Counted from the first letter of the stretch, positions 790 through 11,418 are shown. The stretch: 20,121 nt of DNA from a virus (IMGVR_UViG_3300017773_000206:1-20121); one strand, 5' to 3'. The notes: a model not told the origin generated them from the letters alone. Made by a program: numbers and translations.

Positions 790-1080
790 ATGGAAGTTGA
801 ATCACCGAACTCCTCTCCAGTAGCAGGTTATCGTGATGTTGAAGTGTTGTTCAATAACTGCTCTGACCCAATAGAGTTTCGAGTATACGAGTCAATGTAC
901 CTACGTGCATACGACTCTTTCTACTCTGAAGGTGCTACCCCAAAGTTTTTCTGGATCGTTGGATACGAACTCATCGACGGTGTACCATCAGAAAATCGTA
1001 CCCACGCCAACCTCGCCAATATCTGCTCCATTAAGATCATTGGTAAAAAAGGACATGAATCCTGCTTTCCCCCAAACTGA
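790..1080 (+). CDS. Hypothetical phage protein (96 aa)
   Basis: AAAGGA at 777-782 gives a normal ribosome site 7 bases before the ATG. The 96-residue product has no signal peptide or membrane helix. It contains several aromatic-rich segments (YRDVEVLFNNC, ESMYLRAYDSFY, PKFFWIVGYEL) consistent with a small globular alpha/beta fold, and three cysteines with no obvious metal-site spacing. It heads a run of three small genes (790-1679) with short gaps. No family recognised. Confidence 0.65.
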   Translation: MEVESPNSSPVAGYRDVEVLFNNCSDPIEFRVYESMYLRAYDSFYSEGATPKFFWIVGYELIDGVPSENRTHANLANICSIKIIGKKGHESCFPPN

Positions 1081-1755: not shown

Positions 1756-1776
1756 ATGAGTGAAACAATTCAATGA
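1756..1776 (+). other. Six-codon frame overlapping the next start
   Basis: ATG at 1756 reads MSETIQ and stops at TGA 1774-1776, which overlaps the ATG (1773-1775) of the glycosyltransferase-like gene. That gene has no visible Shine-Dalgarno sequence, so terminating ribosomes could re-initiate there. A comparable five-codon frame (4449-4466) overlaps the start at 4463. Either may be chance. Confidence 0.25.
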
Positions 1777-2702
1777 GGGAATTCCCAGATACACTCCACG
1801 TAAGAGGGGGAACAGGCGCAGGAGATATGATAATGCATCTCGCCTGTGCACACGCATGGAGTTTTCGCTATGACCTGAGAGTGGATCTCTCGTTTCACTG
1901 GGAAGAAAAGGGCGACTGGATCTTTCACCCGCACGATACCGAGTCTGTCTGCGAGAGACTCTCGAATATGCACTCCAAGATGCTGGGATCAGAACGAGTT
2001 ACCCTAGAGCATTTCTGGGAATCAGATATGTTCTCCTATGCCAACTGCATGATGGATGACCAGCAAGCACGTGTGCGGTTGCAACCCCATCGATACTTCT
2101 TAGAGTCTCAACAATCTGGAGGAAGAAACTTCTGTCTGGAGGATCACTGGTATCCTGACTGGCAATTCAAAGAAGAACCTCACAGGCGAGACAAGACGAT
2201 TGTCTATTGGGACAACGGCAAGAATGCGGGAGACATCAAAGACTATAAGAGCGTGATGCACTGGGCACCAGTCCAACTTACCCTTGACCGAATGTTCCCA
2301 GAGCATAGGGTGGTAGCACTCAGTTACAGGGACTCCTTTGAAACTGCATATAACGCCATACAAGGGTGCGACTTTGTTGTTGGTTACGACGGCATGTGGC
2401 ACTATGTGGCGCGTTTGATGGGCAAGCATTTCATCACCATCACAGGAGACATGATCCTGCCTCTGCATATGACCACCCCACAAGAGGGAGTGTTCATTCT
2501 TCCAAACCATTTCTGGCGACACCTAGAGAATATGCGAAACGAGGAATACCGCGAGTTGATGATTGATTACTCACACAGTGCATGGAAGCGCAGGTTGTTC
2601 CATATTGTAGACCCCAACCACATGGGTTATAATAACCAAACCTCCTCCTACATAACTATGACGAGAGAACTAGGTCAATTTAAGAGACACGAGGAATTCT
2701 AA
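1773..2702 (+). CDS. Putative GT-B glycosyltransferase (heptosyltransferase/GT9-like), 309 aa
   Basis: The C-terminal half has the pattern of the nucleotide-sugar-binding domain of GT-B enzymes: after a helix (YRDSFETAYNAIQGC) comes DFVVGYDGMWHYVARLMGK, which matches the 'adlvigxdsGxxHlAaalgkP' element of ADP-heptose-LPS heptosyltransferases. The N-terminus (HVRGGTGAGDMIMHLACAHA) resembles the glycine-rich first strand/turn of the same fold. The predicted role is transfer of a sugar to a host surface glycan, a virion protein or modified DNA base; the acceptor cannot be told. It has no signal peptide and would act in the cytoplasm. It is followed without a gap (TAATG overlap at 2700-2704) by an oxygenase and then a radical SAM gene, so the three probably act together. 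No ribosome site is visible at 1773. Confidence 0.5.
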   Translation: MREFPDTLHVRGGTGAGDMIMHLACAHAWSFRYDLRVDLSFHWEEKGDWIFHPHDTESVCERLSNMHSKMLGSERVTLEHFWESDMFSYANCMMDDQQARVRLQPHRYFLESQQSGGRNFCLEDHWYPDWQFKEEPHRRDKTIVYWDNGKNAGDIKDYKSVMHWAPVQLTLDRMFPEHRVVALSYRDSFETAYNAIQGCDFVVGYDGMWHYVARLMGKHFITITGDMILPLHMTTPQEGVFILPNHFWRHLENMRNEEYRELMIDYSHSAWKRRLFHIVDPNHMGYNNQTSSYITMTRELGQFKRHEEF

Positions 2703-3403
2703 TGAACACCGAGGGAAAGGGACTTGATATCCATAACTTCTCTATTGGCGTAATGCGCGATTGGTTTGACCGTGACTACATGGCAGACCTGACCTCCAAG
2801 TGTGAGAATAAGTTTAACCAGCAACTGTACGCACAAGAGCGCGACTCTGACAATTCTGCTGGAACCTTTGACCAGTTTAACGGCGTCAACTATCAGAACA
2901 ACTCCAAGCGATGGGACCAGTCATTCAGTATGGATGCATTTGGTTCCTTCGCCGAGGATGCAGACTATATCAAGGAGCACTTGTTCGAAGGTGCCGAACT
3001 ATACTTCCGCACCCTTATGGAAGCGAGTGGCGTGAGGGAGTCGGCACACCGAACTATAGACAATGGACTGAAGGTCCAGCGCACTCCTCCAGGAGGCGGG
3101 TTCAATCAAGCGCACTGGGAACAGGGTCCAGGACTTGACGTCTGTAGCAGGTATGCTGTATGGATGATATATCTAAATGATGTACCGAATGGGGGCAAGA
3201 CCACTTTCCCTATCCAGAACATGGACGTCACACCACAGGCAGGAACGCTGTTAGTTTGGCCAGCAGCGTATACTCACCCGCACCATGGCAATCCTCCTAT
3301 TGATTGCTGGAAGTATGTGATAACTGGTTGGTTCAAATACACAACCGCTAAAGTCGTTGATGATGAGTACGAGCAGTATGGACCTAAAGAGAGCAGTGAT
3401 TGA
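2702..3403 (+). CDS. 2OG-Fe(II) oxygenase, prolyl 4-hydroxylase-like (233 aa)
   Basis: The C-terminal half is a double-stranded beta-helix of the prolyl 4-hydroxylase type. Iron ligands are likely His138 and Glu140 (AHWEQ; most relatives have HxD) with the distal His in THPHHG (192-195), and Lys204 (WKYVITGWF) should bind 2-oxoglutarate. Core strands YAVWMIYLNDV, GGKTTFP and VTPQAGTLLVWPA are typical. The enzyme would hydroxylate a protein side chain or another small substrate in the cytoplasm, using O2 and 2-oxoglutarate. The N-terminal 120 residues are less recognisable. The gene at 10891 is a clear paralogue in the C-terminal half. Its start shares TAATG with the glycosyltransferase-like gene, and its 3' end overlaps the radical SAM gene. 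Confidence 0.85.
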   Translation: MNTEGKGLDIHNFSIGVMRDWFDRDYMADLTSKCENKFNQQLYAQERDSDNSAGTFDQFNGVNYQNNSKRWDQSFSMDAFGSFAEDADYIKEHLFEGAELYFRTLMEASGVRESAHRTIDNGLKVQRTPPGGGFNQAHWEQGPGLDVCSRYAVWMIYLNDVPNGGKTTFPIQNMDVTPQAGTLLVWPAAYTHPHHGNPPIDCWKYVITGWFKYTTAKVVDDEYEQYGPKESSD

Positions 3404-4376
3404 AGTAATTGGTGGGTGTAACTACACCTGTCAGATGTGTCCACAAACCAGTCCAGGTCGAGGCAAAGACTGGACTCGTAAAATGCCACTCAACAAATTC
3501 ACATCGATCCTTGATCAAATCACTCCAAAGTACGGGACTCCTCAGATAAACCTCGAGGGTTCAGGGGAACCTACGCTCGCGAAAGACTTACACAAGTACA
3601 TCGCTGAGGTGAAGAGTCGTGGACTGAAGTGCTACATCTACACCAACGGGTTCAACCTGCAAGGCGACTACATGAAGCGAGTCATCGACGCAGGCATAGA
3701 TTTCATTAGAGTCTCTGTTATCGGATACGACGCGGCGACCTACAACCAGTGGATGGATGTTGATAACTTCCACCAGATCCGAAACAACCTGATGAACTTG
3801 CAGAGTTACATCCAGTCATCTGGATCTGTCTGCGAGTTGAGCACGTACCACCTGATCACCGACAACAACCAGATCGAGTATGAGGTGAGCGAGTATCGCC
3901 AGAACTTTATTATGCACGTGAACAGCAAGGCATACATCTGGAAGATGCACAACTGGTCAGGCAACTATGACCCACAGGGTAACGCAAGGAATCCTATGGA
4001 TCGCAAGACCTGTGGGCGACCACATGGACCAGAGATAACGGTTCGTGCTGGTGGTGTCGGTGGGGCGACTGGCGCCATGACTCCCTGCTGTCAGACTCTG
4101 GGTCCACCCAACGAAGCGAAGTCTGTGCTGGGTCACCTGAGTGAGCAAACGTTTGAAGAAGTTTTCTATGGCGAGAAGTATGAGGAGTTGCGTCTTGCCC
4201 ATGAGGAAGAGCGATTCGACGACATAGACTATTGCAAGAACTGCGACTTCCTGTACGACGACCCCGAAGTATTGGTATGGTCCAACGATGGTGCGGCGCG
4301 AACCAAGCATATGCTGGGCACCGACTTCTCCCTGAGAGAGACCCTGATAGTGAGCGACCGCGACACACGTAAGTGA
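3378..4376 (+). CDS. Radical SAM enzyme with SPASM-like C-terminus (332 aa)
   Basis: CNYTCQMC near the N-terminus (Cys14, Cys18, Cys21) is the CxxxCxxC motif that binds the SAM-cleaving [4Fe-4S] cluster. NLEGSGEPTL fits the GGE-type SAM-binding strand, and YIYTNGF and IDFIRVSVIGYDAATY match later strands of the partial TIM barrel. The last third has the cysteine pattern of a SPASM/twitch domain with auxiliary clusters: TCGRP, then MTPCCQTLG, then GHLSEQTFEEVFYG and YCKNCDF. SPASM enzymes usually modify peptides or proteins, sometimes sugars. The frame is open from a TTG at 3357; ATG 3378 is preferred because it puts 13 residues before the first Cys, as is usual. It overlaps the oxygenase gene by 26 bases. 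No small precursor-peptide gene is evident beside it, so the substrate is unknown. Confidence 0.85.
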   Translation: MDLKRAVIEVIGGCNYTCQMCPQTSPGRGKDWTRKMPLNKFTSILDQITPKYGTPQINLEGSGEPTLAKDLHKYIAEVKSRGLKCYIYTNGFNLQGDYMKRVIDAGIDFIRVSVIGYDAATYNQWMDVDNFHQIRNNLMNLQSYIQSSGSVCELSTYHLITDNNQIEYEVSEYRQNFIMHVNSKAYIWKMHNWSGNYDPQGNARNPMDRKTCGRPHGPEITVRAGGVGGATGAMTPCCQTLGPPNEAKSVLGHLSEQTFEEVFYGEKYEELRLAHEEERFDDIDYCKNCDFLYDDPEVLVWSNDGAARTKHMLGTDFSLRETLIVSDRDTRK

Positions 4377-6086: not shown

Positions 6087-6102
6087 ATTGTTGAAAGGTA
6101 AA

Positions 6103-6558
6103 ATGAATATGAAAAAAGTAGTCACTGCTCTCGCCCTCCTCGTCGCTTCCCCTGCCCTTATGGCAGAAAATCACGACGTTGGTGTAGCGGGTATTGATTA
6201 TGAAATCCTCGTCCATAATGTCGACATCCGTGTTATTGAAAGTACCACTAAGACCTCTAAGTATTGCGGTCATGGTGTCCACGGTTGCGCCATCCTCGGT
6301 CGCGCTCGTAATGAGGATGACTCCTTTCGCGCCGCCTGTAATATCTACGTCAAGAAAGACTCCGCTATCACTAAGCGTGATCTGGAAATCACTGTAAATC
6401 ACGAAATGAAGCACTGCTATGGTTGGAACCATAAAGAGATGCCCCGTGCTATTCGTGGTCGTTCTTTTAGTTCTCAGCAAGATTGGTTGGTGCGTAACCA
6501 TAAAATCTGGAACGCTCTTCCAGAAGATCAGTTGACCATTCTTAATTCTTCAAAGTAA
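6103..6558 (+). CDS. Exported metzincin-like zinc protein (151 aa)
   Basis: The start ATG 6103 is chosen over the upstream TTG (6088) because AAAGG lies at 6094-6098 and it gives a clean signal peptide: MNMKKVVTALALLVASPALMA, with probable cleavage after ALMA (residues 18-21). The mature part has HEMKHCYGWNH at residues 100-110, an exact HExxHxxGxxH zinc site as in metzincin peptidases: His100, His104 and His110 bind zinc and Glu101 is the catalytic base. A normal Met-turn is not clear; Met113 follows too closely. Cysteines at 55, 62, 79 and 105 could form disulfides in the periplasm. At 130 mature residues it would be a minimal metzincin. It is the first gene after promoter copy 2, so it is probably made early. 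It may act on host envelope proteins or peptidoglycan; an inactive binding protein is also possible. Confidence 0.75.
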   Translation: MNMKKVVTALALLVASPALMAENHDVGVAGIDYEILVHNVDIRVIESTTKTSKYCGHGVHGCAILGRARNEDDSFRAACNIYVKKDSAITKRDLEITVNHEMKHCYGWNHKEMPRAIRGRSFSSQQDWLVRNHKIWNALPEDQLTILNSSK

Positions 6559-6569
6559 TCGGAGTTCTT

Positions 6570-6830
6570 ATGATAGTACGCTACTACAAAGCAAAGTTGA
6601 CCCACGAAGAAGTTCTTGATGCGCCAGCAGACAAGGTGGTCAACTTCAAAGACCCAGTGTCTCTGTTCCATAGTGGTTGGGAAATAATGAACGATCCAGA
6701 GAACGAGTTCAATACCGCCATGACGATTGGCGCCAACGATGAACCTGGACTGTACTATAGCAACCAGAACCGTCACAATCGTTTTGTCGCTCAGGCGTTT
6801 GAGTCACTCCAATCTGGAGAGTATCGATGA
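6570..6830 (+). CDS. Hypothetical protein (86 aa)
   Basis: GGAG at 6561-6564 is 5 bases before the ATG. The 86-residue soluble product begins MIVRYYKAKLTHEEVLDAPA and has a middle section rich in Asn/Asp (MNDPENEFNTAM). No motif recognised. It follows the metzincin-like gene by 11 bases and overlaps the next gene (ATGA at 6827), so it belongs to the operon of promoter copy 2. Confidence 0.65.
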   Translation: MIVRYYKAKLTHEEVLDAPADKVVNFKDPVSLFHSGWEIMNDPENEFNTAMTIGANDEPGLYYSNQNRHNRFVAQAFESLQSGEYR

Positions 6831-7111
6831 GAATGAAGATCATCCGCGAGACCACGAACTTCACCAAGGTGGAGTACAGCGTACCCAAGCACGACTATAT
6901 GGTCGAGGGTGGGCACGGTGGTCGCCTGATTGCTATGCGCAAGGAAGGCAAGGAAGACTGGATGAAGTTTAGCAAGGCAATCCCGTTCTCTAAGAAGCAC
7001 CGCACGTTCAAGGAACTGCGCGAAGATCTACCGACTGAGTTCGTCAAACCCACCCAGTCTAATCCATGGGACAACAAATCCTATAATTCACTTGAGGCAT
7101 TCATGGCATGA
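6827..7111 (+). CDS. Hypothetical basic protein (94 aa)
   Basis: GGAGA (6816-6820) lies 6 bases before the ATG; an internal ATG at 6833 (MKIIRETT) is an alternative start. The product is basic, with a Gly/His turn (VEGGHGGRLIAM) followed by Lys-rich sequence (KEGKEDWMKFSKAIPFSKKH) and a C-terminal FKELREDLPTEF. It could be a small nucleic-acid-binding protein, but there is no recognised domain. ATGA overlaps link it to both neighbours. Confidence 0.65.
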   Translation: MRMKIIRETTNFTKVEYSVPKHDYMVEGGHGGRLIAMRKEGKEDWMKFSKAIPFSKKHRTFKELREDLPTEFVKPTQSNPWDNKSYNSLEAFMA

Positions 7112-7455
7112 TGAAAGCATATATCCTATCACCCCAAGCGCCCAACGCAGTCTGTAAGGTTCTGTATGGCGAGACTCCCGACGGTCGTTATGTCGAGTTG
7201 CGTGAGGTTTACGAGTTTGCTATGTTTGAGTTGGACTTCGATACTGAAGACACTCAGGCGAGGGATATGCTCGAAAGCGCATCCTGCGTCTCCGACCTAC
7301 GGTTCTTCAGTGACCGCGTGGAAGTGCTGGAGTACAGCAACCTAGTGAGACTTGACTATACCCTTGACGGTGTTACGTCAGATGCGGTAGACTTCGATAT
7401 CCAAGGTAAGTATTGGGAAATTAATTCTACTATGAGCATCGAGGAGAGATCATGA
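7108..7455 (+). CDS. Hypothetical acidic protein (115 aa)
   Basis: The start is the first ATG of ATGATG at 7108-7113, overlapping the upstream stop. The product is acidic and appears mostly beta-stranded: KAYILSPQAPNAVCKVLYGE, VELREVYEFAMFELDFDTED, FFSDRVEVLEYSNLVRLDYT. No membrane segment or known motif. It overlaps the next small gene by 4 bases. Confidence 0.65.
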   Translation: MMKAYILSPQAPNAVCKVLYGETPDGRYVELREVYEFAMFELDFDTEDTQARDMLESASCVSDLRFFSDRVEVLEYSNLVRLDYTLDGVTSDAVDFDIQGKYWEINSTMSIEERS

Positions 7456-7631
7456 AAGTTATTGTCACAAGTCCACCCGCTGCCAGTCGAGTCTGGTATG
7501 AGCACGCAGTCGGGCAGGTGTTCGAAGTAATCTACGAGACCCCAGCAGAGTATTATGTTAAGACAGGCGACGGAATGAACACTGGTAATTTTATCCAGAA
7601 GTCTGATGCCAAAGTATTGTTGAACGATTAA
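7452..7631 (+). CDS. Small beta-rich hypothetical protein (59 aa)
   Basis: GAGGAGAG at 7441-7448 precedes the ATG (7452), which overlaps the upstream TGA. The 59 residues have the rhythm of a small SH3-like barrel: MKVIVTSPPAA, VWYEHAVGQVFEVIYE, AEYYVKTGDGMNTG, then FIQKSDAKVLLND. Short phage proteins with 'WY...iGxxFeV...YyV...I.ksd' are frequent, but their function is not known. Confidence 0.65.
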   Translation: MKVIVTSPPAASRVWYEHAVGQVFEVIYETPAEYYVKTGDGMNTGNFIQKSDAKVLLND

Positions 7632-7641
7632 GGAAATCGAA

Positions 7642-7920
7642 ATGAAAGCGAAGAAGATAATCCCCACACCCGTTGATGTTGTAGGTCGTAATGTTTCTTG
7701 GAGAAACGAGGGTGGACATACCCTGTACGGCGAAGTCATAAAAGTTGGTTTCAAATATCACCCGCATCCTAAATACCCTAACACCTCTCTGCGTATTACT
7801 ACGAAGGTGTTGACCCTGCTTATGGCAGACGGTCGAGTGTTCAAGGTATCAGGTGAGATGAAAGACCTGAAGCGTATGGGTATGGTCGCTGATACTAAGG
7901 TGGTTGTCGAGGACTTCTAA
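7642..7920 (+). CDS. Small beta-rich hypothetical protein (92 aa)
   Basis: AAGGA at 7630-7634 is the ribosome site. The product has alternating beta-type segments (DVVGRNVSWRNEGGHTLYGE, VIKVGFKYHPH, LRITTKVLTLLMADGRVFKV) and no membrane segment. Sequence suggests a small barrel, perhaps nucleic-acid binding, but no family was recognised. Its TAA overlaps the ATG of the cell-wall hydrolase (TAATG, 7918-7922), so both are probably translated together. Confidence 0.6.
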   Translation: MKAKKIIPTPVDVVGRNVSWRNEGGHTLYGEVIKVGFKYHPHPKYPNTSLRITTKVLTLLMADGRVFKVSGEMKDLKRMGMVADTKVVVEDF

Positions 7921-8408
7921 TGCGTGCGCTCGCTCTTTTGTTCCTGATCCCTTCCCTGTCTTTCGCCTATGGCGATGCTGACGGAGCGGAAGTAATGTGC
8001 CTCGCTGAGAACATCTATCACGAGGCAAGAGGCGAAGGGTACGAAGGCATGTTCGCTGTTGGTCACGTCACTATGAACCGAGTTGAATCCTCACGATTCC
8101 CCGACACGGTTTGTGGCGTTGTCCGACAGGCGAAGTATATCAAGTCGTGGCGAACTGGAGAAATGGTTCCCGCAAGAAACAGGTGCCAGTTTAGTTGGTA
8201 CTGCGACGGTAGACCAGAAGTGATCAACAAAGAGTCCAAGGAATGGCGAAACTCTTTGACGATTGCTGCTGCGTCGTTTTACCGTTTGGATGGAGAGGAC
8301 ACCACAGATGGTTCCATGTGGTACCATGCACAGCGGGTCACTCCATATTGGGCAAATAGTATGTATAAAGTGAGACAAGTAAACAATCATATCTTTTACA
8401 GGCAGTAA
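7920..8408 (+). CDS. Exported SleB-like cell wall hydrolase / endolysin (162 aa)
   Basis: Residues 1-16 (MRALALLFLIPSLSFA) form a signal peptide. The rest matches the Hydrolase_2 (SleB) fold: MCLAENIYHEARGEGYEGM holds the conserved NIYHEARGE with Glu35 as likely catalytic acid, followed by VGHVTMNRVESSRFP, TVCGVVRQ, RCQFSWYCDG and WYHAQRVTPYWA. SleB-type enzymes are lytic transglycosylases or amidase-like peptidoglycan hydrolases; in phages they serve as endolysins. The signal peptide means it can reach the periplasm through Sec, so a holin might only need to trigger it. Cys27, Cys65, Cys89 and Cys95 could make disulfides. The next gene, a membrane/coiled-coil protein, may share in lysis. Confidence 0.88.
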   Translation: MRALALLFLIPSLSFAYGDADGAEVMCLAENIYHEARGEGYEGMFAVGHVTMNRVESSRFPDTVCGVVRQAKYIKSWRTGEMVPARNRCQFSWYCDGRPEVINKESKEWRNSLTIAAASFYRLDGEDTTDGSMWYHAQRVTPYWANSMYKVRQVNNHIFYRQ

Positions 8409-10601: not shown

Positions 10602-10894
10602 TGGCAAAGAAGACCCCAGAAATTGAGTACAAGTACAGCGAAGATCGCATCCTCAATGAATTGAAAGAGTACGTTGACAAGACGTATGGCGAGCACTACG
10701 CCAAGAACAAGTTTCAGGCAACCGAGTTTATCATTGACGGTGGCCACGGCGAGGGTTTCTGCCTCGGTAACATCCTGAAGTATACCCAGCGTTATGGCAA
10801 GAAGGCAGGCAAGAACCGTGCTGACTTGATGAAGGTTGTACACTACGCAATCATCGCACTCCACGTACATGACCTGGAATCAGACGCCGAGTGA
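10601..10894 (+). CDS. DUF3310-like protein (97 aa)
   Basis: The C-terminal 50 residues, GFCLGNILKYTQRYGKKAGK followed by NRADLMKVVHYAIIAL, match the DUF3310 pattern (fxxGNvxKYxxRxgxKxgxxDLxKaxxYl) found in many phage 'nucleotide kinase-like' or SaV proteins. The preceding IIDGGHGEGF is typical of the T4-like phage form. It is a small soluble protein, possibly related to MazG-like nucleotide metabolism folds; activity is not established. It sits between the ribbon-helix-helix gene (TAATG overlap) and an oxygenase gene whose GTG start overlaps its stop (GTGA). Confidence 0.75.
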   Translation: MAKKTPEIEYKYSEDRILNELKEYVDKTYGEHYAKNKFQATEFIIDGGHGEGFCLGNILKYTQRYGKKAGKNRADLMKVVHYAIIALHVHDLESDAE

Positions 10895-11418
10895 AGATCT
10901 GGAGTCATGCTATCCCGCGCGACCTTTGTGACAGGTTAGTGACTTGTTACGAGGGTCATAAGCACAGGGCGATTAAGACCGATACCTCTGCGCGTAAAGA
11001 CGCTGCGTTGTACCTGCGCTCTGTAGCACCAGCGATGGTCAAAGAGTTTGAACCAATCCTGTTGGATCGTGCGCGCGAATACTTTGCCGAGTTTGGTAGC
11101 GAGACTCTCATCACAGAGAAACTGTTTAAGAACATCACGTACAAAGTTCAGAAGTCCACGAAGGGTGGCGGGTTCACCGCTCCTCATTTCGAGCAGACCC
11201 CGAGCAACCCTAACAGGTTTGCTGTATGGATGGCATACCTGAACAGCACCGAAGACTCAAGCGGTAGGACAGTGTTCCCGAAGCAGGAGAAAACTGTCAC
11301 ACCACAGATTGGTAAGTTGGTAATCTGGCCAGCAGGTTACACTCACCCCCACTTTGCTGGCGAGTTGTTCTGTGACAAGTACACCATCACTGGGTGGTTT
11401 GAATACGATGCTGACTGA
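10891..11418 (+). CDS. 2OG-Fe(II) oxygenase, prolyl 4-hydroxylase-like (175 aa)
   Basis: Start is the GTG at 10891 that overlaps the upstream TGA. The protein is a compact paralogue of the product of 2702-3403: TYKVQKSTKGGGFTAPHFEQ (His99, Glu101 as iron ligands), FAVWMAYLN, GRTVFPKQEKTVTPQIGKLV, WPAGYTHPHFAG (distal His152 or His154) and KYTITGWFEY (Lys163 for 2-oxoglutarate). Both copies use HxE where most family members have HxD. The N-terminal 80 residues are helical and differ from the other copy, so the two probably act on different substrates. It is directly followed, with an 11-base overlap, by a third oxygenase. Confidence 0.85.
   Translation: MKIWSHAIPRDLCDRLVTCYEGHKHRAIKTDTSARKDAALYLRSVAPAMVKEFEPILLDRAREYFAEFGSETLITEKLFKNITYKVQKSTKGGGFTAPHFEQTPSNPNRFAVWMAYLNSTEDSSGRTVFPKQEKTVTPQIGKLVIWPAGYTHPHFAGELFCDKYTITGWFEYDAD

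Follow-up and report, generated by a model that had tools for sequence, protein, structure and literature searches.

A glycosyltransferase and radical SAM gene pair, joined in one clade by an oxygenase, as a candidate glycan-tailoring module of marine phages

RESULTS AND DISCUSSION

Three overlapping genes in a 20,121-base virus record (IMGVR_UViG_3300017773_000206:1-20121; the whole stretch is referred to here as the window) code for a glycosyltransferase-like (GT-like) protein, a 2-oxoglutarate (2OG)-Fe(II) oxygenase, and a radical S-adenosylmethionine (radical SAM) enzyme. We propose, with a probability of about 58%, that these genes form a glycan-tailoring module of the phage. Its enzymes would add a sugar and modify it through radical and oxygenase reactions, and the most likely target is a surface glycan of the host. 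The proposal draws on the gene content, the conserved catalytic residues, the folds, the constant coupling of GT-like and radical SAM genes in phages, and the surface-polysaccharide context of the bacterial relatives.

A sequence-only reading of the window had placed three overlapping genes at 1773-4376 and described them as a GT-B-like transferase, possibly of family GT9, a prolyl 4-hydroxylase-like oxygenase, and a SPASM-type radical SAM enzyme. These assignments were borne out by the analyses below, the SPASM type as regards the C terminus. The three open reading frames (ORFs) were confirmed on the + strand, with the overlaps present (Table 1). The GT-like gene ends in TAATG and shares 1 nt with the start of the oxygenase gene. 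The listed start of the radical SAM gene is a TTG at 3357, with ATG codons at 3360, 3363, and 3378 equally likely; all of these candidates fall inside the oxygenase gene, and the ATG at 3378 would give an overlap of 26 nt. The third-position GC content of the trio (0.54 to 0.63) is like that of the other genes of the window (0.54 to 0.61), and the trio genes are therefore not recent compositional strangers. By its other genes, the window phage appears to belong near the T4-like marine phages; its DUF6267 protein is 67% identical to that of phage C48C1 (filed under Kyanoviridae) and 46% identical to those of Methylophilales phages, and hundreds of cyanophages also code for a related protein.

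Conservation of the trio and of the GT/radical SAM pair

Relatives of the radical SAM enzyme were taken from viral contigs, those of the GT-like protein were collected with its own sequence and then with a profile and motif, and those of the oxygenase with its own sequence. The trio is present in the same order in eight phage records including the window, one of them partial. All three genes are found in L001, L003 (near-copy L071), L004 (near-copy L002), L006, L007, and L107, while the partial record, L005, begins within the oxygenase. Whether the genes are kept as a unit in related phages was a question raised by the sequence-only reading; they are, in seven other virus lineages, and the arrangement is not due to chance. 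Across these relatives, identity to the window is 68 to 86% for the radical SAM enzyme and about 32 to 48% for the GT-like protein and the oxygenase. L107 has two genes inserted between the GT-like and oxygenase genes (6855-8025), one for a HAD-phosphatase-like protein and one for a JmjC-type oxygenase (PF08007, E 4e-14); this slot thus seems to collect oxygenases.

A motif search for GT-like genes, made without the radical SAM gene, gave 80 loci, and in 76 of them the GT-like gene has a radical SAM gene downstream in the same orientation. Of the remaining four, three have no more than about 250 bp of sequence after the GT-like gene. The fourth is L120, where the place of the radical SAM gene is taken by a methyltransferase-like gene (6801-7553, motif DMPYGTT), which overlaps the GT-like gene at its end. 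In the nonredundant set, all 52 GT-like genes are followed by a radical SAM gene, with the ends mostly overlapping or abutting. Phage C48C1, the sole annotated phage that matched either protein at the limits used, has both genes, also overlapping. Since every GT-like gene of the nonredundant set is followed by a radical SAM gene and relatives of the oxygenase usually lie elsewhere, the GT/radical SAM pair is the constant core, and the oxygenase a lineage-specific addition in one clade. The gene order had been taken earlier as a sign of hydroxylation plus glycosylation or another radical modification of one substrate; hydroxylation followed by glycosylation of one protein found no support here. 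The oxygenase is an extra to the constant unit.

A maximum likelihood tree of 93 radical SAM proteins (midpoint rooted, with long branches) grouped the trio clade (8 rows, support 100/99) with SAR11 bacteria and with phages that have no GT-like gene. A clade of 35 rows with the pair and without the oxygenase was separate (100/100). Coupling to the GT-like gene in two distant radical SAM clades implies that it was ancestral and then lost in between or that it was gained twice.

The phages that carry the radical SAM gene without a GT-like partner have several adjacent radical SAM paralogues. In large T4-like phages (L033, L035, L038, L048, L053, L059, and L064), several radical SAM genes are clustered and alternate with genes of families that have no known domain (c7, c8, c9, c3, and c5). 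One of them, c7, which lies directly upstream of the radical SAM gene in phages without the GT-like gene, was considered as a diverged version of the latter and discarded (hhalign probability at most 1.2%). Beside the pair, phages code for a NodU-type carbamoyltransferase (a strong match) and for GT8-like and sulfotransferase-like proteins (both below cut-off), neighbors that suggest surface-glycan work. In many T4-like carriers (L083 to L099, e.g., L085 7636-7965), a small conserved protein is encoded directly upstream of the GT-like gene; its single EF-hand-like loop (DSNGDGKVSDEE) precedes two probable membrane helices, and it matches no family above cut-off.

The radical SAM enzyme

The radical SAM protein matched PF04055 (E 7.9e-13) and the SPASM family PF13186 (E 1.1e-8; 35.7 bits versus a cut-off of 21.5), both above cut-off. 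It has the CxxxCxxC motif (C21/C25/C28) and five auxiliary cysteines (C219, C244, C245, C293, and C296), and all eight are present without exception in 93 relatives from phages and bacteria. For the structural models, the alignments used contained no row of an annotated phage record. The model of this protein reached a predicted local distance difference test score (pLDDT) of 88, and its first nine Foldseek matches in the PDB were DesII, BtrN, and BlsE, enzymes whose substrates are sugars or a cyclitol, with the peptide enzymes SuiB and anSME lower down. The sugar enzyme BtrN (2-deoxy-scyllo-inosamine dehydrogenase, a Twitch radical SAM enzyme; PDB 4m7t) was also the best match of a profile search against PDB sequences (E 2e-14), with both domains aligned.

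Canonical SPASM domains with two auxiliary clusters have a further cysteine-rich run after the CxxC motif. That set is incomplete here, with no cysteine after position 296. The Cys...Cys...CxxC arrangement would fit a single auxiliary cluster held by four cysteines, and the auxiliary domain aligns to that of BtrN. Twitch enzymes have one auxiliary cluster, held in BtrN by four cysteines (PMC9012708). The phage protein differs from BtrN in its low identity (about 19%), its genomic setting, and a longer C-terminal domain, which has one extra Cys (at C244 C245) and a W-x-M-H-N-W block that does not vary. DesII and BlsE also act on sugar substrates (a nucleotide sugar and cytosylglucuronate, respectively), although identity is only 14 to 15% and they come from antibiotic pathways and not from surface polysaccharide synthesis. 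By fold and genomic context, the substrate of the radical SAM enzyme is most likely of a sugar type.

The GT-like protein

The AlphaFold2 model of the GT-like protein (pLDDT 86.4, predicted TM-score 0.84) matched the heptosyltransferase WaaC best in the PDB (2h1h; E 4.6e-4, Foldseek probability 1.00), followed by TibC, PimA, and WaaF, and nearly all the leading PDB matches were GT-B glycosyltransferases. Among its matches to viral structures were phage proteins annotated as GT9. An hhalign comparison with an alignment of 33 GT9 proteins from bacterial genomes gave a probability of 86%, with the YDGMWH region aligned to the GT9 D-T-G-x-x-H region, versus at most 1.2% for control comparisons with unrelated families. 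Two motifs are invariant, YDGMWH (residues 205 to 210) and, in 52 GT-like sequences, GxGD (G15, G17, and D18), which resembles the N-terminal motif of GT9. The Asp of that motif is the proposed base in WaaC. The phage protein is like WaaC, WaaF, and the protein heptosyltransferase TibC in its predicted GT-B fold, and its GxGD motif and the Asp-Gly...His of its C-terminal domain resemble theirs. It had no match above cut-off in Pfam (a single chance match fell below it) and none in PHROG or NCBIfam, and its profile found only one unrelated weak match among PDB sequences. Fold and profile comparison support a predicted GT-B enzyme close to GT9, so that the sequence-only reading, which a different fold would have refuted, passes this check.

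The 2OG oxygenase

Matches of the oxygenase to PF13640 (E 2.4e-8, above cut-off), phrog_61 (E 4.3e-26), and prolyl 4-hydroxylases in the PDB (E 8e-4) agree on its family. The site residues of H138xE140, H194, and K204 (H, E, H, and K) are each kept in 55 to 56 of 56 relatives. The distal His and the 2OG-binding Lys are those of prolyl 4-hydroxylase-like oxygenases, and H194 and K204 have the spacing of those enzymes, but 55 of the 56 nonredundant relatives have HxE as their iron motif where HxD is usual. Glu can bind iron in some 2OG enzymes. The window has a second, shorter paralogue away from the module (Table 1), with 44% identity to the trio oxygenase over the matched part (BLASTP) and a phrog_61 match of E 1.6e-18.

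Bacterial relatives in surface-polysaccharide islands

When 84,980 species genomes were scanned, relatives of the radical SAM enzyme turned up in SAR11 single-cell genomes (55 to 67% identity) and in Rhodospirillales and a few others (about 42 to 46%). L272 and L275, which have the GT/radical SAM pair, are phage contigs binned in GTDB into a Sphingobacteriales and a Euryarchaeota metagenome assembly, respectively, and are probable binning contaminants. The bacterial relatives reside in surface-polysaccharide islands. In the SAR11 genome G001, the radical SAM gene is located at 172.0 kb, between the 23S (134.2 to 137.0 kb) and 5S (199.0 kb) genes of one contig, and in G003 it shares a contig with the 5S gene in the same order. 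The sole 23S and 5S genes of SAR11 bound hypervariable region 2 (HVR2), which holds mostly lipopolysaccharide (LPS) genes (PMC2217521), and the position in G001 is therefore that of HVR2. The gene was found in 6 of 297 genomes of the SAR11 family, a patchy presence that would be expected if the locus is a variable surface one.

Its SAR11 neighbors code for sugar 4,6-dehydratases, epimerases, a nucleotidyltransferase, a GT2 glycosyltransferase, and a polysaccharide deacetylase. A KdsB/NeuA-type cytidylyltransferase gene adjoins the radical SAM gene in three SAR11 loci (L262, L270, and L271) and in several Rhodospirillales-type loci, and L270 also has a DAHP/KdsA-type synthase. L262 and L271, from two SAR11 genomes, carry tandem radical SAM copies followed by the NeuA-type cytidylyltransferase. 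At 4 of 12 SAR11 loci, a 2OG oxygenase gene lies no more than two genes from the radical SAM gene; those of L263 and L268 are of the PF13640 type above cut-off, and those of L267 and L269 were placed in this type because they resemble one another and the L268 protein. Upstream of the radical SAM gene in Rhodospirillales are genes for a KdsB-type cytidylyltransferase and for a HAD phosphatase, and downstream is the gene of a tetratricopeptide repeat (TPR) protein with a GT9-like C-terminal half (hhalign 86% over 231 columns). This adjacency indicates that GT9 and radical SAM genes were joined independently in phages and in chromosomes, where the GT9 proteins are not the same. The neighbors of the SAR11 radical SAM gene were also considered as diverged copies of the phage GT-like gene and discarded (hhalign at most 1.2%).

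A proposed glycan-tailoring module

In the mechanism that we propose, the GT9-like GT-B enzyme would take its sugar from an activated nucleotide donor and attach it to an acceptor glycan. ADP-heptose is the usual donor of GT9 enzymes; the neighbors of the bacterial radical SAM relatives, not the phage locus, suggest CMP-3-deoxy-D-manno-octulosonate (CMP-Kdo) or CMP-nonulosonate. The Twitch-type radical SAM enzyme would take a hydrogen from a sugar carbon by means of a 5'-deoxyadenosyl radical and, by analogy to BtrN, that position might be oxidized, epimerized, or deoxygenated, the electron being taken up by the auxiliary cluster. In the lineage of the window phage, the 2OG oxygenase may contribute a hydroxylation. 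The product would most likely remodel the surface polysaccharide (LPS) of the infected host, as phage seroconversion enzymes do, with the possible benefit of shutting out competing phages.

Several points weigh against this proposal. The WaaC match of the GT-like model has a modest TM-score (0.41) and its E-value, the best obtained, is modest too. Unlike WaaC, WaaF, and TibC, the GT-like protein does not match the GT9 family PF01075 in a Pfam search (of the profile comparisons pointed to by the sequence-only reading, PF13640, PF04055, and PF13186 gave matches and GT9 was reached only by hhalign), its YDGMWH motif is one residue shorter than the D-S/T-G-x-x-H of GT9 and lacks the S/T, and its family is confined to phages as far as searched, with no homologue in 13 SAR11/alphaproteobacterial genomes in a search that had no positive control. 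Relatives of the oxygenase lie mostly away from radical SAM genes, beside one at 2 of 79 loci, and its link to the module depends on one phage clade and on the looser SAR11 cases. In addition, the substrate, donor, and acceptor are predictions, as are the type of reaction, the order in which its steps occur, the target on the cell surface, and the benefit. Finally, some phage copies (L012 and L070) are found among tail or head genes, a location that would fit decoration of the virion equally well.

The sequence-only reading had left two targets side by side, a virion protein and a host surface molecule, of which we favor the second. That the module glycosylates and tailors a virion protein (tail fiber or head decoration), altering adsorption or hiding the particle, is in our view unlikely. 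The presence of TibC among the best folds of the GT model, the pair of C48C1 near a baseplate/tail-lysozyme gene, the L012 and L070 copies among tail-like or terminase genes, and the ability of hydroxylated residues to carry sugars speak for it. However, the bacterial relatives are found in LPS/polysaccharide islands, where virions are not made, and no virion gene is constantly beside the pair.

The possibility that the three are loosely assembled auxiliary genes with roles of their own, with the pair as the sole functional unit and the oxygenase as a passenger, has a lower probability still. The absence of the oxygenase from the 35-row pair clade, together with the location of most of its relatives, is what such a passenger would predict, but the trio keeps its tight overlaps in eight records despite divergence of the GT-like protein and oxygenase to about 32 to 48%, PF13640-type oxygenases are found repeatedly no more than two genes away from the radical SAM gene of SAR11, and L107 has its further JmjC-type oxygenase in the same slot.

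Hypermodification of DNA, with a base hydroxylated by the oxygenase and glycosylated by the transferase and the sugar tailored by the radical enzyme, follows a known logic for phage DNA (2OG, glycosyltransferase, and tailoring enzymes), but it is highly improbable given that the oxygenase is prolyl 4-hydroxylase-like (PF13640) and not TET/JBP, that the radical enzyme has its relatives in polysaccharide islands, and that the pair exists without any oxygenase; our literature search found no paper tying radical SAM enzymes to it. Equally remote is the maturation of a ribosomally synthesized and post-translationally modified peptide (RiPP), in which a phage peptide would be modified by the SPASM enzyme and then hydroxylated and glycosylated; the SPASM-type domain is above cut-off and there is weak likeness to several RiPP maturases, but no NCBIfam family, maturases included, reached its curated cut-off, the best folds are sugar enzymes, the two-cluster cysteine set is incomplete, the bacterial context is one of nucleotide-sugar genes, and no precursor-like ORF was recognized beside the module (no dedicated precursor search was run). 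The cut-offs led us to reject RiPP maturation as the leading view, and the earlier expectation of a peptide or protein maturase also gave way to the nearest solved relatives, BtrN, DesII, and BlsE, and to the polysaccharide clusters of the bacterial relatives.

Extending the glycan-tailoring proposal, we tentatively consider, at less than even odds, that the LPS islands of abundant marine bacteria, SAR11 among them, and the phages of these bacteria have in common a radical step that acts on a surface sugar (Kdo, nonulosonate, or heptose). The phages would add a dedicated GT9-like transferase of their own and, here, an oxygenase to rewrite the outer coat of the host in the course of infection.

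Relation to known systems

Radical SAM genes have been found before in marine T4-like phages. A 183-kb genome has 12 of them (PMC5332604), and the host-recognition cluster of pelagimyophages holds radical SAM cassettes, in an island linked to host recognition and LPS genes (PMC7029224). Like the carriers described here, these are marine T4-like phages with radical SAM clusters; in the parts of both papers available to us, this radical SAM family, its GT partner, and a sugar function are not defined. In Tasman Sea phages, radical SAM genes were enriched together with glycosyltransferases (PMC7150976). The literature that we searched held no description of the radical SAM family, of its constant GT9-like partner, or of the link to the SAR11 LPS island, and within that search the statement of the sequence-only reading that it knew of no described phage system with this trio still stands. 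As proposed, the module is a phage surface-glycan modification, a known kind of system, with radical chemistry as the new element. We know of no description of radical editing of a surface glycan by phages. Many radical SAM genes of marine T4-like phages have no known purpose, and through the GT partner and the link to the SAR11 LPS island one widespread family now receives a concrete and testable candidate role, the radical remodeling of surface sugars in the contest between phage and host. The family also offers new enzymes for C-H chemistry on sugars.

Other features of the window

The features located are collected in Table 1.

Table 1. Location of the trio and of other features in the window
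Feature	Position	Strand	Evidence
GT-B glycosyltransferase, GT9/heptosyltransferase-like (predicted), 309 aa	1773..2702	+	AlphaFold2 model, Foldseek, hhalign
2OG-Fe(II) oxygenase, prolyl-4-hydroxylase-like, 233 aa	2702..3403	+	PF13640, phrog_61, PDB match
Radical SAM enzyme, Twitch/SPASM-type, BtrN-like, 339 aa from TTG	3357..4376	+	PF04055, PF13186, Foldseek, profile vs PDB
Small conserved protein, 96 aa, without Pfam match, upstream of trio	790..1080	+	Clustering
Second, shorter 2OG oxygenase paralogue, 175 aa, away from module	10891..11418	+	BLASTP, phrog_61

No tRNA genes were found in the window. The gene of the 96-aa protein is kept upstream of the trio in six trio contigs and probably lies outside the functional module. 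A probable secreted protein is encoded at 6088-6558, with a signal-like N terminus and a motif like a metal site (NHEMKHCYGWNH), and weakly resembles reprolysin-type metallopeptidases (below cut-off).

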